The notes beneath the pieces were generated by a model. It ran no database searches and was not told where the DNA came from. It saw only the letters and a list, made by a program, of their open reading frames with translations. Below, piece by piece: positions 9,407 through 17,036 of a DNA stretch of 64,000 bases (positions are counted from its first letter, which is position 1; every line of letters starts with the position of its first letter). Source of the DNA: Aestuariispira insulae (GTDB lineage Bacteria; Pseudomonadota; Alphaproteobacteria; UBA8366; Aestuariispiraceae); assembly GCF_003385955.1 (NCBI RefSeq), contig NZ_QRDW01000007.1:1-64000 (forward strand), read 5' to 3'. The translations under genes were made by a program, and so were the position numbers.

Positions 9407-11098
9407 CTAACGATCCGGGGCAGGGGCCACGCCACAGGGATGGTTGCCCCGGTCGGGCACGATCTTCGGCAACTCCACGATAAAGACGGCCCCTTCCCCT
9501 TCCCGGCTCTGACAGGTGATATCGCCACAAAGCTTGGCCTGGACGATATTATAGACCACGCTGAGGCCAAGCCCGGTTCCCGCTCCGCCCATGGATTTGC
9601 GGAAGAACGGGTCAAAAACACGGGCCACATTCTCCTCCGCAATGCCGCAGCCATCATCGCAATGTTCAACCCGGACCATACCGTCCTTCTCTTCGATCAA
9701 GAGGCGTATCGTTCCACTTTCGCCTGGCTTATAGGCATGTTCCAGACTGTTGATCATCAGGTTTGAAACCACCTGGGCAAAAGCGCCAGGAAATGAATCC
9801 ATTTCGATCGCCTCATCACAGACCAGTTCGATCTTGATGTTGCTTTCCTTAAATTGCGGCAACAGGCTGTGAAACACATTGCGCGTATATTCCGCAACAT
9901 TGAACTCCCGCCGTTCCTCACTGGTTTGATCCACCGCGATTTTCTTGAAACTAGAAATCAGGTCCGCGGCTCTTTCCAGGTTGCCCCGAATTAATTCAAA
10001 GGCCTCATCCGCTTTTTCGCAAAACGCGGTCAGGTCTGACTTCTTAATTTGCCCGCTTTCCAGACTGCCCTTCAACCCATCCAGCCGGTCGGTCATGTGG
10101 GTGACAACCGTCAGCCCCACGCCGACCGGGGTATTTATTTCATGCGCTATCCCGGCGACCAGATGCCCCAGGGCCGCGATCTTTTCGGCCTGGATCAATG
10201 TCTCCTGCGTTTCCCGCAGTTCGGTCAGGGCTTTTTCCGCATCCTCCTTCGCCGCCAGCGCCTCTTCCTGGGCACGCACGGTTTCAGTGACATCGGCATA
10301 AGTGGTGACAAAACCGCCGGTGATGACCGGCATGGGATTGCCTTCGATTTCTATCACGGTGCCGTCATTCAGCACCCGCCGGAAACTGTGCGGCTGTGGG
10401 TCTCGGGCTTTTTCCAGGCGCTCTTCGACCAATTCATTGATGTCGCCGTCACCATATTCCCCGCGCTCGGCATTGAAGGTGAAAAAGCGGGATAGCTCCG
10501 TTCCCACTTCAGAAAAACCGTCCGGCAGGTTCAACAGCTTCATGAACCGGTCATTACACAAAGCCAGCCTAAGGTCCTTGTCAAAAACCGAAATTCCCTG
10601 GGATATATGCTCGACAGTCGCTTCGAGCAGCGCCGATTGATAGGCAAGTTCCCGGGTGCGCTCTTTCACCTTTTCTTCAAGGCTGGCATTTGCCTCCCGC
10701 AGCTTTTCGGCAAACTGCCGACGCTCCGTGACATCCTTATAGATACTGATGAAGCCGCCATCCTCCAGCGGCGCTCCTTTGATTTCAAGAACGGTCCCAT
10801 CGGGGCGCCTGCGCTCAAAACAATGGGCCTGACGCAGTTTCAGAAGGGCGACCCGCTCGGAAACCATGGCATCCACATCCCCCGGACCATAGTCACCGCG
10901 TTCCGCATTAAACCGGAAGACATCCTCCAGAGGAGTACCCGGCCGCATCAGGGAAACCGGCAAATCCAGCAGGGTAATCGCGCTGAGATTGGTATAAACC
11001 AGACGAAACTCGGAATCATGCATGGTGATCCCGTCATCCAGCTTATCCAAAGCGGAAAACAGCCGCCCTTGGTCACGATTTCCCTGCTGGCCCGCCAT
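9407..11098 (-). CDS. Cytoplasmic PAS-domain sensor histidine kinase
   Basis: A 563-residue kinase without membrane segments. Two PAS_7 domains are recognisable by paired motifs: DGITMHD with FNAERGDYG near residues 22-70, and QGISVFD with FNAERGEYG near residues 167-215. A coiled coil (residues 255-310) leads to the H-box GHLVAGIAHEINTP with the phosphorylated His near 319. The ATPase domain has NSLEHA (N-box), DDGCGI (G1) and GTGLGLS (G2). It lacks a receiver domain. It begins 7 bases after the chemoreceptor stop, on the same strand, so the two are translated from one message and probably sense or signal together. No response regulator is adjacent. Confidence 0.9.
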   Translation of the reverse strand: MAGQQGNRDQGRLFSALDKLDDGITMHDSEFRLVYTNLSAITLLDLPVSLMRPGTPLEDVFRFNAERGDYGPGDVDAMVSERVALLKLRQAHCFERRRPDGTVLEIKGAPLEDGGFISIYKDVTERRQFAEKLREANASLEEKVKERTRELAYQSALLEATVEHISQGISVFDKDLRLALCNDRFMKLLNLPDGFSEVGTELSRFFTFNAERGEYGDGDINELVEERLEKARDPQPHSFRRVLNDGTVIEIEGNPMPVITGGFVTTYADVTETVRAQEEALAAKEDAEKALTELRETQETLIQAEKIAALGHLVAGIAHEINTPVGVGLTVVTHMTDRLDGLKGSLESGQIKKSDLTAFCEKADEAFELIRGNLERAADLISSFKKIAVDQTSEERREFNVAEYTRNVFHSLLPQFKESNIKIELVCDEAIEMDSFPGAFAQVVSNLMINSLEHAYKPGESGTIRLLIEEKDGMVRVEHCDDGCGIAEENVARVFDPFFRKSMGGAGTGLGLSVVYNIVQAKLCGDITCQSREGEGAVFIVELPKIVPDRGNHPCGVAPAPDR

Positions 11099-11104
11099 GC
11101 CCTG

Positions 11105-12790
11105 TTAAACCGCCCGGACTTTGGACAAAAAGGTGTCCACCGCCTCACGCAAGACCGTTGCCTGTTCCTCCAACTCCCCGGCGGAGGTCAGCACGTTTTT
11201 CGAAACCTGACCGGTTTCATCCACGGCCTTTGACACACCGGAAATATTGGTGGAAACCTCTTTGGTCCCCTTGGCCGCCTGATCGACATTGCGGGCGATC
11301 TCTGTCGTAGCCGCGCCCTGCTGTTCGACCGCGGCGGCAATTGTCGTCGCTGCCTGATCCAACTGCTGGATGGTTTTGGCAATACTCTCAATGGCGGTCA
11401 CCGCCTGATTGGTCGACTGCTGAATATCCCCGATCTGGCTGGAGATTTCATCAGTTGCCTTGGCTGTTTGATTGGCCAATGACTTCACTTCATTGGCCAC
11501 CACCGCAAATCCTTTGCCGGCATCACCGGCCCTGGCCGCCTCGATGGTTGCGTTCAAAGCCAGCAGGTTGGTTTGTTCCGCAATGTCCGTGATCAGGGAA
11601 ACAACTTCACCGATTTTATTGGCCGACTGGGCAAGATTCTCAATTTTTTTGTGCGTTTCATCCGATGCCGCCACCGCCTGACGGGCGATTTCAGCGGATT
11701 GCCCCACCTGGCGGCTGATTTCACTGATCGACGAAGATAGCTGGTCCGCCGCCGAGGCAACGGTTTCCACATTCATTGAGGTTTCTTCCGATGCCGTGGC
11801 CACGACCGAGGATTGCTGTCCCGCCTGATCGGCTGTTTCGGTCATTCGGCTGGCAGATTGGCGCATCTCGCCAGTTGCGCTGCTGACAAAACGGACAACC
11901 CCGCCAACGCTTTCCTCAAAATGGTCGGCCATCTGCAGCATGGCGGCCTTTTTCTCAGACTCCGAGCGTTTCTCCTGCTCGACCTGATGTTGGCGCATCT
12001 GTTCCATTTCAATGCTTTTTTCCAGAAACACATCCATGGAACGCGATAGATCACCGATCTCGCTGCGTTCGTCGGAAAAGCGGATATTGATATTGTGATC
12101 GCCTTCAGAGAGCCGGATCATGTTCCGGGCAATCGAATTGATCGGCCGGGAAATAGAGCGTCCAATGACAAGAGAAAGAGCAATCATCACCGCAACAATC
12201 ACTAGCGCGACGATGGCCAGCAACAGCACGTTTTTCATGAAAATCGCATTCACATCATCAATATATATGCCCGACCCCATGATCCATTTCCAGGGGCCGT
12301 AACCTTTCACGTAAGACACTTTTGGAACCGGTTCTTCAAAGCCGGGTTTTGGCCAATGGTAGTTTACAAAACCGCCTCCGGACTGCTTAACCACCTTCAC
12401 GAATTCGCGGAAGATATAAACACCATTCACATCCTTCAGATCACTGAGGTCTTTGCCGTTCAGTTTCGGACTGATGGGATGCATCAGCACAACGGAATCA
12501 TAGTTATTGATCCAAAAATATTCCTGGCCGCCGTCATAGCGGACATTGTGGATCGCTTCCATGGCGGCTTTTTGTGCCTCTTCAACGCTCATATTGCCGG
12601 CACTGGCTTCTTTCCCAAAGTAATCAACAATGCTGTGAATGGATTCAACGATATGCTGGGTTTTAATCTGACGGCTTTCCACCAGCATTCGATGCTGTTC
12701 CACCAACACATACCCGCTCAAGACCGCAACACCGATCACACCGACCAGCGTCACCAACAAAATACGCCACCGCAACTTGAGTTTCTTCAT
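11105..12790 (-). CDS. Methyl-accepting chemotaxis protein with periplasmic sCache domain
   Basis: A 561-residue inner-membrane chemoreceptor. An N-terminal membrane segment (about residues 9-28) is followed by a periplasmic single-Cache (sCache_2) domain, marked by [12 protein letters not shown] and a [15 protein letters not shown] end. Then come a second membrane helix near residue 190, a HAMP domain and the long signalling coiled coil. The conserved hairpin tip [13 protein letters not shown] and methylation helices rich in Ala, Glu and Gln are present. sCache_2 domains of this type often bind small carboxylates. It is the first gene of a two-gene unit with the PAS histidine kinase. Confidence 0.94.
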
Positions 12791-14431: not shown

Positions 14432-14908
14432 TCAGATCGAACAGGTCGCCAGGCCGCGCTTTTCCAGATATTGCTGATGATAATCTTCAGCGACCCAAAA
14501 ATCGCCCGCTGGTGCAATTTCCGTCACAATAGGTCGGCTGTGACGGCCTGAGGCTTGCTCTTCCGCCATGGAGGCCTTGGCCGTTTGTTCTTGCGCTTCA
14601 TCATAAAAGTAAATCGCCGAACGATATTGGCTGCCTGTATCCGGCCCCTGCCGATTCAATTGCGTCGGGTCATGCTTTTGCCAAAAAACCGACAGTAGAT
14701 CCTGATAAGACACCCTTTCCGGGTCGAAGGTCACCAGCACAACCTCCGCATGACCGGTACTGTCACTGCAGACCTCTTTGTAGCTCGGATCGGTTTTTGA
14801 TCCCCCGCTATATCCGACCGCCGTTTCCATGACACCGGGCACCGACCGGAAGGCCGCTTCCACGCCCCAGAAACAACCTGCGCCAAACATCGCTTTTTCC
14901 ACCGGCAT
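14432..14908 (-). CDS. msrA: Peptide-methionine (S)-S-oxide reductase
   Basis: It repairs oxidised methionine by reducing the S-sulfoxide, using thioredoxin. The 158-residue cytoplasmic form has the catalytic motif GAGCFWG with Cys12, the GYSGG segment, HAEVV and GSQYRSAIY typical of MsrA, and a resolving Cys near the end (TCSI). The start at 14908 (MPVEKAMF) gives a normal-length enzyme; an in-frame ATG at 14971 would add an unmatched Arg- and Ala-rich leader. A GGGAG block lies close to this ATG. It stands alone, convergent with the usp gene, and its promoter would lie in or near the stretch before the sigma-54 element at 15068-15250. Confidence 0.93.
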   Translation of the reverse strand: MPVEKAMFGAGCFWGVEAAFRSVPGVMETAVGYSGGSKTDPSYKEVCSDSTGHAEVVLVTFDPERVSYQDLLSVFWQKHDPTQLNRQGPDTGSQYRSAIYFYDEAQEQTAKASMAEEQASGRHSRPIVTEIAPAGDFWVAEDYHQQYLEKRGLATCSI

Positions 14909-15067
14909 TCTCCCTATCGCAAAAAATCTATTGATGGCAGCCTTCGAAAACCGGCTCCATGCCCCTGCCATTGCAAGGCCCTCCCAATATGGTCAATCCC
15001 GGGGCTCACTTCCAGTAAGCTCCTGTCACAATTTCTTGTGGCACCCACACATGTAGGGAGCGCCATT

Positions 15068-15152
15068 TTCGCATATTGCAAATAACTATTCGCATATTGC
15101 GAATTTATTCATTTGCATTTTGCGATTTTTCTGGATATTTGCAATTTGCGAA
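15068..15152. promoter_or_regulatory. Four tandem 15-bp inverted-repeat operators, probable enhancer sites
   Basis: Four near-palindromes of the form TTYGCA-N3-TGCRAA occur in a row: 15068-15082 (TTCGCATATTGCAAA), 15089-15103 (TTCGCATATTGCGAA), 15112-15126 (TTTGCATTTTGCGAT, last base off) and 15138-15152 (TTTGCAATTTGCGAA). Their starts are 21, 23 and 26 bp apart, about two helical turns, so a protein could bind them along one face. They lie 107-191 bp upstream of the predicted start driven by the sigma-54 promoter at 15232-15249, the usual distance for enhancer-binding proteins. The core resembles the Vibrio LuxO site TTGCA-N3-TGCAA as I remember it. Confidence 0.75.
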
Positions 15153-15231
15153 TAAGGGAGTTTTTTTAGATTTCGTTTTTTATATTGTTTATTTTCAACA
15201 GCTTAATTTTTTTTCAAACCCTCAGAGAAAA

Positions 15232-15249
15232 CTGGCACACCCTTTGCTA
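15232..15249 (+). promoter_or_regulatory. Sigma-54 promoter (-24/-12)
   Basis: The sequence CTGGCACACCCTTTGCTA fits the sigma-54 consensus YTGGCACGRNNNTTGCW: the GG (15234-15235) and GC (15246-15247) are exactly 10 bases apart, TGGCAC is complete and TTGCT is complete. Only the two bases after TGGCAC differ. Transcription would start near 15259, just before the first hairpin of the predicted RNA. Confidence 0.75.
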
Positions 15250-15258
15250 CTATCTTGT

Positions 15259-15375
15259 TACATCGGGCACTTGCAGCCAATCCACTTTCTTGCCCGATGT
15301 GCAAAGGCAAAGCCTTTGATAAGGACTGTGGCCCTAACCGCCCCTTCCCCCCAGGTTAGGGCCACACGTCTTTCT
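15259..15375 (+). ncRNA. Predicted sigma-54-dependent small RNA with three hairpins
   Basis: From the predicted start near 15259 the transcript folds into three perfect hairpins in a row. Hairpin 1 has a 10-bp stem, 15260-15269 with 15291-15300, and a 21-base loop. Hairpin 2 has 7 bp, 15302-15308 with 15312-15318, and an AAA loop. Hairpin 3 has 12 bp, 15328-15339 with 15354-15365, and a C-rich loop, GCCCCTTCCCCCCA. Hairpin 3 is followed by ACGTCTTTCT, a weak terminator tail. No credible protein is encoded; the 110-codon frame overlapping it starts inside the operator repeats. The C-rich loop could pair with Shine-Dalgarno regions, as in several alphaproteobacterial small RNAs. The layout (enhancer sites, sigma-54 promoter, roughly 115-nt hairpin RNA) recalls the Qrr RNAs of Vibrio, but I see no sequence similarity that proves kinship. 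Confidence 0.6.
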
Positions 15376-15467
15376 AAACCATTAAAATCCTCAAATTCAC
15401 TCATATGAGCCGGCCCGCATTCGAGCCGGTTGAAGCTCTGCGCTTTCGCACATTCCGGAGGCGTCCC

Positions 15468-16388
15468 TCAAATCCCCAAGACATCATACTCCATCCGGGC
15501 CTCAATGGCCTGATCGGCCAACCAGGCCCGAAAAGCTTTGATTTTCGGACGATCTTCCTGATGTTTGGGGCAGACGATGTAATAGGCGGACGCACTCTCG
15601 TAATCCACATCAAATAACTTCACCAACCGCCCCAACTTTAAATCCTCGCCTACATGGGCGCTGCGCACCAGCGCCACCCCCTGGTCACTGTAGGCCGCCT
15701 GAAGCGCCATGTTGGTATCCGGAAAGCGTGGGCCGTCGCCAAGCAACGGGTTCATCAGCCCCGCACGCCGGAACCATTCCTGCCAGGTCGATGTGCGCTC
15801 TTCATTATTGCGCAAAAGCAAGGGCATCTGCAGAAGATCCGACGGTGTTTCAGGCATGCCATATTGTTCAATCAGGCCCGGGCTGCAGGCGGGAAAGACC
15901 TTCTCCGTCAGCATCAGCTCACAAAACAGCCCCGGATAATTGCCTCCGCCCAGCCGGATCGCCATATCGGCTTCGCCATCAGCAAAGTCGATGCAATTAT
16001 CATTGGTGGAAATCCAGACATCAATGTCCGGATGCCGGGCCTGAAAATCCGGCAGGCGCGGCACCAGCCATTTCACTGCAAAGGATTGCAAAAGGCTCAC
16101 TTTCAAAGCCCCTCGCACCTCTTCCTCCGCCAGTTGGGTCAGGGAAACTTCCATCCGTTCCAGGAAATCCCGAATCACAGGAACCAATACCTTTGCCTGC
16201 TCGGAGAGCACCAGCCCTCGCTTTTGCCGGATGAACAGCTTGAAACCCCAAAATTCCTCCATATGGCGGATCTGGTGACTGATCGCGCTTTGGGTGACAT
16301 TTAGCTCTTCCGAAGCACGGGTAAAGCTCAGATGGCGGGCGGCTGCTTCAAGCGCACGCAAGGCAGCAATAGGCGGCAGGGGACGCAT
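15468..16388 (-). CDS. LysR-family transcriptional regulator, GcvA-like
   Basis: A 306-residue LysR protein. The N-terminal winged helix (residues 5-65) has the GcvA-branch pattern LPPIAALRALEAAARHLSF, with VTQSAISHQIRHMEE as recognition helix. The rest is the two-lobed effector domain, including ADMAIRLGGGNYPG. The effector is unknown. It reads away from tadA in the same direction, and the small-RNA element lies beyond its 3' end, so there is no divergent target gene to suggest a regulon. A GC hairpin (CCGGC arms around 15409-15428) follows its stop and may end its transcript. Confidence 0.92.
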   Translation of the reverse strand: MRPLPPIAALRALEAAARHLSFTRASEELNVTQSAISHQIRHMEEFWGFKLFIRQKRGLVLSEQAKVLVPVIRDFLERMEVSLTQLAEEEVRGALKVSLLQSFAVKWLVPRLPDFQARHPDIDVWISTNDNCIDFADGEADMAIRLGGGNYPGLFCELMLTEKVFPACSPGLIEQYGMPETPSDLLQMPLLLRNNEERTSTWQEWFRRAGLMNPLLGDGPRFPDTNMALQAAYSDQGVALVRSAHVGEDLKLGRLVKLFDVDYESASAYYIVCPKHQEDRPKIKAFRAWLADQAIEARMEYDVLGI

Positions 16389-16460: not shown

Positions 16461-16919
16461 TTACCGCCGATCCCGGAAAAAGGATTTCAGCAAATCAGCG
16501 CATTCACTTTCCGACAGGCCGCCGACAATCTCCGGTCGGTGATGGCAGGTGGATTGCTCATAGATGCGCGGCCCATGATCCACCCCGCCGCCCTTGGGAT
16601 CATAGGCCCCGAAAAAGAGCCGCCGGACCCGGGCAAAGGAAATGACGGTCGCACACATCGGACAGGGTTCCAGCGTCACATATAGATCACAGCCTGGTAG
16701 CCGCGGTTCGCCCAGCAATTGACCCGCAGCCCGGATCGCCAGCAATTCCGCATGGGCGGAGGGATCATTCAATTCCTCCACCCGGTTTCCCGCCGCCGCC
16801 AAGACCCTTCCGGTTGCCGATTCGACAACGACCGCCCCCACCGGCACTTCACCTCGGGCTGCCGCGGCCTCTGCCGCCTTTATTGCCTGTTGCATATATT
16901 CGTTCGGTTCGACCGTCAT
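16461..16919 (-). CDS. tadA: tRNA-specific adenosine deaminase
   Basis: It deaminates wobble adenosine 34 of tRNA-Arg(ACG) to inosine. The 152-residue cytidine-deaminase-fold protein has the zinc motif HAE (in DPSAHAELLAIR) and PCPMC (in TLEPCPMCATVI), with the catalytic Glu in HAE. GEVPVGAVVV is the usual opening strand. The start at 16919 was chosen because AGGAAAG precedes it and it gives normal length; an in-frame ATG at 16997 would add 26 atypical residues. In many alphaproteobacteria tadA lies directly divergent from the rRNA pseudouridine synthase gene; here two extra genes lie between them. Confidence 0.93.
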   Translation of the reverse strand: MTVEPNEYMQQAIKAAEAAAARGEVPVGAVVVESATGRVLAAAGNRVEELNDPSAHAELLAIRAAGQLLGEPRLPGCDLYVTLEPCPMCATVISFARVRRLFFGAYDPKGGGVDHGPRIYEQSTCHHRPEIVGGLSESECADLLKSFFRDRR

Positions 16920-17036
16920 CACTTTCCTGCCTGTCTCCGGCTCAGAATACCTCACGCTTAACGGTCTGCCGCCTTTCAGCGAAACGGGCCGTGCCAAGTA
17001 TCTGGCAGGATACCTAACACAGCCCTTTCTCTGCTA

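Follow-up and report, generated by a model that had tools for sequence, protein, structure and literature searches.

The window analysed here is a 64-kb stretch of the Aestuariispira insulae genome (4.82 Mb, 49 contigs; G000 in a set of 14 family genomes, of which G001 to G013 are the other members). Between a divergent msrA gene and a convergent gene for a LysR-type regulator lie four copies of one 15-bp palindrome, an AT-rich spacer, a predicted σ54 promoter element and a predicted small RNA (Table 1). Three of the four copies match TTYGCA-N3-TGCRAA exactly and site 3 departs from it at the last base only, so that the four near-palindromes described in the first-pass annotation, starting 21, 23 and 26 bp apart, are borne out with a single mismatch in one copy. 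The sites end 81–151 bp before the −24 element at 15233. Given that element and a transcription start that we place near 15259, ∼12 nt past its GC, the array also lies 107–191 bp before the σ54 start, as the annotation had proposed. The element agrees at 11 of 12 positions with the σ54 consensus, its counterparts in G001 and G005 scoring 11/12 and 9/12, respectively. The gene for σ54, rpoN, is encoded in the window's genome.

Table 1. Features of the array, promoter and small RNA locus, in positions of the window.
Feature	Position	Strand	Remarks
LuxO-type site 1 TTCGCATATTGCAAA (predicted)	15068..15082	+	exact; one of three exact matches genome-wide
LuxO-type site 2 TTCGCATATTGCGAA (predicted)	15089..15103	+	exact match
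LuxO-type site 3 TTTGCATTTTGCGAT (predicted)	15112..15126	+	one mismatch to the 15-mer; exact for the 13-mer TYGCAWWWTGCRA
LuxO-type site 4 TTTGCAATTTGCGAA (predicted)	15138..15152	+	exact match
AT-rich spacer, enhancer to promoter	15153..15232	+	read from the sequence; putative role in DNA looping
σ54 promoter element TGGCACACCCTTTGCT (predicted)	15233..15248	+	GG at 15234, GC at 15246; GG-N10-GC, −24/−12
Predicted small RNA, ∼115 nt, three stem-loops	15259..15373	+	presumed start; fold; homologues in G001 and G005
RNA stem-loops 1, 2 and 3	15259–15301, 15302–15318, 15321–15373	+	predicted fold
Loop 1 TTGCAGCCAATCCA, candidate mRNA-pairing seed	15271..15284	+	identical in G000, G001 and G005
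C-rich loop CCGCCCCTTCCCCCCAGG of the terminator-like hairpin	15338..15355	+	identical in G000, G001 and G005
msrA, divergent flanking gene, synteny marker	14432..14971	-	NCBIfam msrA above cut-off; adjoins the sites in G005
lysR-type regulator gene (GcvA-like), convergent flank, synteny marker	15468..16388	-	lysR also adjoins the RNA in G001 and G005
tadA, next after lysR	16461..16997	-	tadA also beside the second RNA in six relatives

The annotation had called the sites phased, which holds only roughly. Their centre spacings of 21, 23 and 26 bp correspond to 2.0, 2.2 and 2.5 helical turns, so that the sites do not all occupy the same face of the helix. A genome scan for the 15-bp pattern, which the annotation had put forward as a check, found exact matches at three places, all inside the array rather than at random positions, and none for the reversed control. 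With one mismatch allowed there were 27 places in the genome against 11 for the control, 4 of the 27 being the array. The LuxO-like 13-mer TYGCAWWWTGCRA, which is the LuxO consensus with T or C as the second base of each arm, fits all four sites and occurs five times genome-wide, four of them in the array; under a strict pattern, the sole remaining copy (C2:518057) has no σ54 element within 500 bp. At up to two mismatches the 64-kb window alone holds 7 matches where 13 are expected, which is not above chance, and the distinctness of the array therefore lies in its exact matches and their clustering, not in two-mismatch counts within the window. We regard the array as confirmed and as nearly unique within its own genome. 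Plasmid carriage of the array and RNA region was rejected, since positions 14990–15420 found no match in a plasmid collection. Elsewhere in the window (9407–12790), ∼2–6 kb from the array, a PAS histidine kinase gene adjoins a methyl-accepting chemotaxis gene.

The predicted small RNA and a counterpart in related genomes

The stretch 15249–15380 folds with a free energy of −56.8 kcal/mol (z −8.2) into a first hairpin with the loop TTGCAGCCAATCCA, a short second hairpin and a long terminator-like third with the loop CCGCCCCTTCCCCCCAGG. Two further genera of the family have homologues, represented by G001 and by G005 (the marine relative Curvivirga aplysinae RKSG073; Aestuariispiraceae, Alphaproteobacteria). 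Across the three sequences the loops are identical and the stems vary; 8 of 31 consensus pairs carry a double change in at least one sequence, and some consensus pairs are broken, mostly in G005. A covariance model of the RNA gave strong matches in these 3 of the 14 family genomes and in the same three among 385 genomes drawn from the class. Weaker model matches in G005 (C160 minus strand, and C172) and G012 (C204), which had neither a site with at most one mismatch nor a strict σ54 element, were dropped, and DNA matches in G065 (E 8.5e-4) and G091 (E 6.6e-5) are short and fall within the AT-rich spacer.

At the gathering score Rfam returned nothing in the window, and within 15040–15400 Qrr was not matched even at E values up to 5, so that membership of the Rfam Qrr family was rejected. 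A weak match to 6C RNA (23.6 bits, gathering score 47, E 0.46) was likewise rejected and attributed to the C-rich loop. The T-run past the terminator-like hairpin is weak in the window, and the hairpin is absent from the output of a terminator scan, its loop exceeding the length that the scan allows.

The sites accompany the RNA. G001 has three exact sites, 22–23 bp apart, before its σ54 element. The RNA contig of G005 (C160) starts just before the promoter, and sites lie at bases 89 and 141 of another contig, C15, with msrA next to them; C15 and C160 share their first 25 bases in reverse-complement orientation. Sites thus precede the RNA in each of the three genomes where it occurs. The lysR gene flanks the RNA in 3/3 genomes, and msrA is the other neighbour in G000 and G005; in G001 msrA was not found, and the universal-stress gene stands there. 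The tadA gene follows lysR in G000 and G001 and was not seen within the 4 kb examined of G005.

Six other relatives, all of one genus (G004, G009, G010, G011, G012 and G013), have a site 132–151 bp before a σ54 element (9–11 of 12 positions), followed by a second predicted RNA. TCACCYGATCGCAARTC stands in its first loop, the second hairpin is short, and the terminator-like loop is C-rich, reading CCGACCCTCCCCACCCTCAGG in all but G010, which has a variant. Double changes affect 21 of its 38 consensus pairs in one or more of the six sequences. In 6/6 genomes its locus is bordered by an M48 protease gene on one side and by tadA-rluB on the other. The covariance model of the first RNA does not match it. 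On the basis of the nearby tadA and the common three-hairpin design, we read the two RNAs as putative diverged orthologues.

LuxO-like activators and the distribution of the palindrome

The annotation had noted that the core of the palindrome resembles a LuxO site. This held up, as the sites fit the published consensus TTGCAW3TGCAA, that is, the 13-bp palindrome TTGCAWWWTGCAA (PMC11443567, PMC10162802), apart from frequent TCGCA arms. None of the four sites in the window is a perfect TTGCAWWWTGCAA, and one perfect copy occurs in G001. A weak LuxO ChIP peak in V. cholerae likewise has one site with CG in one arm (PMC10328515).

A search for a σ54 activator of the LuxO type, also suggested by the annotation, yielded ten clear proteins with a Sigma54_activat domain and three weak matches in the window's genome. 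An NCBIfam scan covered six of the ten, and LuxO was the best model for two: the C6 protein (G000:C6:110724-112250, 649 bits) and the C18 protein (G000:C18:3325-4806, 562 bits). LuxO has receiver, AAA+ and DNA-binding domains, and the model spans the whole of each protein; since both scores are below the curated cut-off of 800, we call the proteins LuxO-like rather than LuxO. The best models for the other four were NtrC, a PEP-CTERM regulator, FlbD and NtrC again, the last below its cut-off. Against Photobacterium LuxO (5ep0) the C6 protein scored 475 bits. In V. cholerae LuxO eleven residues are needed for DNA binding (PMC11407668); by sequence comparison 9 of the 11 are kept in the C6 protein (V420I and L429K differ) and 8 in the C18 protein, compared with ∼4 by eye in the NtrC of the same genome. 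The recognition helix S-x-I-Y-R-K is present in both LuxO-like proteins and absent from the other eight activators of the genome. Among 26 LuxO-like loci it was read in 20; L058 has the variant ATVYRK, and L050, L051, L054, L059 and L066 stand outside the count. The linker between receiver and AAA+ domain of LuxO is inhibitory and has a conserved glycine (PMC10162802). The C6 protein aligns to 5ep0 across this linker and shares YxGFIG with it. LuxO is phosphorylated through LuxU and quorum-sensing kinases; by eye, none of the genes surrounding the C6 gene looked like LuxU. Next to the C18 gene (L022:3325-4806) are polysaccharide genes, judged by eye to be flippase-, ligase- and glycosyltransferase-like, which recalls V. 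fischeri SypG, and a PAS histidine kinase gene is found near the C18 gene (L022:612-1835).

C6-type proteins are encoded in 12 of the 14 family genomes (E below 1e-100). The 14 genomes together contain the 13-mer 49 times and its reversed control 3 times, and the 13-mer is lacking altogether from G002 and G007, which are also the two without a C6-type protein. In 8 of the 12 genomes (G001, G004, G005, G009, G010, G011, G012 and G013) a site begins 59–137 bp ahead of the point where the luxO-like gene itself is estimated to start, and chance would give ∼0.0015 such sites; it is missing in G000, G003, G006 and G008. These upstream sites form the pattern expected of a self-regulating LuxO, suggesting that the gene may be autoregulated. 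With two LuxO-like proteins encoded and the motif upstream of the luxO-like gene in relatives, the annotation's candidate, a LuxO-like response regulator, is supported. Neither of the two outcomes that the annotation named as refuting its reading, a random spread of the pattern and a genome lacking σ54 activators, was observed. The distribution makes the C6 protein most likely the acting regulator of the array.

Of the 49 family sites, 27 can be accounted for: 9 in arrays, 8 in luxO-like promoters, 6 before the second RNA, 3 before lipoprotein genes and 1 before a response-regulator-like gene. The lipoprotein sites, in G003, G006 and G008 (L096:1563-1846, L103:1577-1828 and L098:802-1063), stand together with a σ54 element before a gene for an OmpA-type lipoprotein, which is oriented divergently from an M48 protease gene. 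In G008:C160 (L099:1536-1871) a site and a good σ54 element precede the response-regulator-like gene. Some 21–22 of the 49 sites are not tied to this regulon, and 12 of the 22 first left over lie inside reading frames of at least 150 codons. The palindromes CTTGCATTATGCAAG or CTTGCAAAATGCAAG at HxlR-like genes (type assigned by eye) in G009, G011 and G013 (L105:1532, L113:1582 and 1616, L118:1555) also fit the 13-mer and may be operators of HxlR-like regulators.

We consider it probable, with good confidence, that a LuxO-like response regulator uses the four sites as its enhancer and would thereby drive the σ54 promoter and a pairing RNA of ∼115 nt; the C6 protein is the likeliest such regulator. 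It is unlikely that the array is instead bound mainly by the C18 protein, or by both proteins. The C18 protein does share its best NCBIfam model and recognition helix with the C6 protein and is adjoined by polysaccharide genes, and SypG, the LuxO paralogue of the V. fischeri syp locus, activates qrr1 through sites overlapping those of LuxO (PMC10162802). However, a second LuxO-like copy at E below 1e-100 occurs only in G000 and G008 of the 14 family genomes, G001 and G005 having the array with a C6-type protein alone, and it is C6-type genes that have sites upstream, whereas the C18-type genes of G000 (L070) and G008 (L069) have none.

Less probable again, and very improbable in our estimation, is that the palindromes are operators of an unrelated regulator, such as a repressor of msrA or of the RNA, and resemble LuxO sites by accident. 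Many bacterial regulators use short AT-flanked palindromes, and the similar but distinct palindromes at the HxlR-like genes may be operators of this kind; yet the repeated pairing of the motif with σ54 elements at enhancer distance, within and outside the family, and its presence upstream of the luxO-like gene and absence where that gene is lacking, argue against this reading. Hairpins or terminators rather than regulator sites would be the least credible reading of all. A terminator scan does list the palindrome at 15088–15104 on both strands, but msrA is divergent, so that its start and not its end faces the array, and on this ground the array was rejected as a terminator; moreover, G001 preserves the palindromes and their layout but not the intervening bases, and the exact pattern occurs nowhere else in the window's genome.

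For an enhancer bound by the C6 protein, we infer binding, phosphorylation, transcription and pairing from what was computed, namely the sites, the promoter element, RNA conservation, the activator genes and the association between motif and gene. A signal would change the kinase-driven phosphorylation of the C6 protein, whose phosphorylated dimers would fill the four-site array. Its AAA+ ring would then form, contact σ54 polymerase at 15233–15248 across the AT-rich spacer and open the complex. The small RNA would thereupon be made, and its exposed loops would pair with mRNAs. In several relatives the luxO-like mRNA would be one pairing target, its gene also having a LuxO-type site, which would give a Vibrio-like feedback. 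An orphan RNA thereby gains a named candidate activator, and its signal can be sought through that protein.

Predicted pairing and feedback

In vibrios, Qrr RNAs repress luxO and pair with luxO mRNA (PMC3262071). We paired both loops of the RNA with the luxO-like leader of the same genome in nine genomes, comparing each with 2000 dinucleotide shuffles of the leader. Loop 1 pairing was strong in G001 (−28.2 kcal/mol, P=0.0005), G009 (−34.1 kcal/mol, P=0.0005) and G010 (−28.7 kcal/mol, P=0.0025) and weak in G005 (−15.7 kcal/mol, P=0.04), and was not significant in G000 (P=0.61), G004 (0.60), G013 (0.56), G012 (0.87) and G011 (0.17). Pairing thus exceeded the shuffles in 4/9 genomes; Fisher's method over the nine gave 9.5e-6, a value that is not a clean probability because the genomes are related. 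For the C-rich loop the values were 0.0085 in G004, 0.0495 in G000, 0.07 in G001 and 0.12–0.93 in the other six (Fisher 0.021). When all RNAs were set against all leaders, RNAs of close relatives scored alike, which means that the pairing is not specific to single species. As G000 has neither a site upstream of its luxO-like gene nor loop 1 pairing, feedback is proposed for the relatives and not for A. insulae.

Other possible targets were sought in three genomes with the reverse complement of loop 1, allowing up to two mismatches, which gave 89, 46 and at least 72 matches (the last in G005) against 6, 21 and 10 for the reversed controls; 25 loci were inspected. At G000:C2:511235 (L138:1501-1582), loop 1 could form a 16-bp perfect-plus-wobble duplex of −33 kcal/mol, ∼80 nt ahead of the start of a chemoreceptor-like gene whose product has a HAMP domain, making the leader of this gene a candidate target of the RNA. 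No orthologous match was present among the inspected G001 and G005 loci, so this leader is a lead only.

Comparison with known circuits and the motif beyond the family

Quorum sensing in Vibrio is built around small RNAs driven by LuxO, and such circuits are best known from vibrios. Typical Qrr RNAs depend on Hfq and control a master regulator of the LuxR/AphA type. The locus shares with the LuxO/σ54/Qrr systems of Vibrionaceae a LuxO-class activator, a palindrome of the TTGCAWWWTGCAA type, a σ54 promoter, an RNA of ∼100 nt and one to several sites ∼90–190 bp before the start and, in relatives, a site ahead of the luxO-like gene, with whose mRNA the RNA is predicted to pair. It differs in being alphaproteobacterial, in an RNA with no Rfam Qrr match, in half-sites that are often TCGCA rather than TTGCA, in an array of four sites in the window where vibrios have one or two, in the single RNA found per genome, in a luxO-like gene that lies apart from the RNA gene and in the feedback, which is not seen in the window's genome. 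Small RNAs dependent on σ54 and driven by NtrC-family activators are also known from Gammaproteobacteria, where CrcZ and NrsZ share this general design and differ from the present case in their activators, sites and RNAs. The C18 protein resembles SypG of V. fischeri in being a second activator by polysaccharide genes that could share sites (PMC10162802), and differs in that a second LuxO-like copy is rare in the family.

The most likely reading of these sequences is a LuxO-type, Qrr-like circuit in Alphaproteobacteria. The fuller proposition would be a complete circuit, in which the LuxO-like activator drives the RNA and the luxO-like gene receives feedback from both, from the activator by way of the site before its own gene and from the RNA by loop pairing with the mRNA; the RNA sequence would change quickly, its loops co-evolving with the leader, and the logic and the DNA site, though not the RNA sequence, would be conserved across proteobacterial classes. 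We judge the chances for and against this proposition to be about equal. The available part of an older survey records LuxO homologues in most Proteobacteria and mentions no alphaproteobacterial site or RNA (PMC524169), and that of a paper on Caulobacter RNAs names LuxO and Qrr only for Vibrio (PMC12559287). Among the matches listed in the open-access literature, as far as their available text goes, none describes a LuxO-driven small RNA outside Vibrionaceae, Alphaproteobacteria included. If the proposed circuit is true, the LuxO site and its coupling to small RNAs would predate Vibrio quorum sensing or be more mobile, and this alphaproteobacterial group would offer a second place to study the evolution of such circuits.

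Two-site arrays with a gap of 5–18 were found in 8 of the 385 genomes of the class and in none for the reversed pattern. Six genomes outside the family contain seven arrays between them. Five of these arrays have a TGGCA-type σ54 element downstream in line, against a chance expectation of ∼0.005 for such an element in seven 200-bp stretches (by simple base counting); of the other two arrays, one has a poorer element nearby on the opposite strand and one has none. At L126:1501-1900 (G374:C3) the stretch after a two-site array and a 12/12 σ54 element contains a terminator-like hairpin but lacks any long reading frame; it may encode an unrelated small RNA of the LuxO type, which by eye bears no likeness to the other RNAs. 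At L128:1501-1610 (G148:C65) the array and element stand before a sugar-epimerase-like gene (by eye), hinting that this class of activator controls polysaccharide elsewhere. The remaining downstream features outside the family, again by eye, are a regulator-like protein (L124) and small reading frames. The differing features downstream indicate that neither the motif nor its activator class serves small RNAs only.
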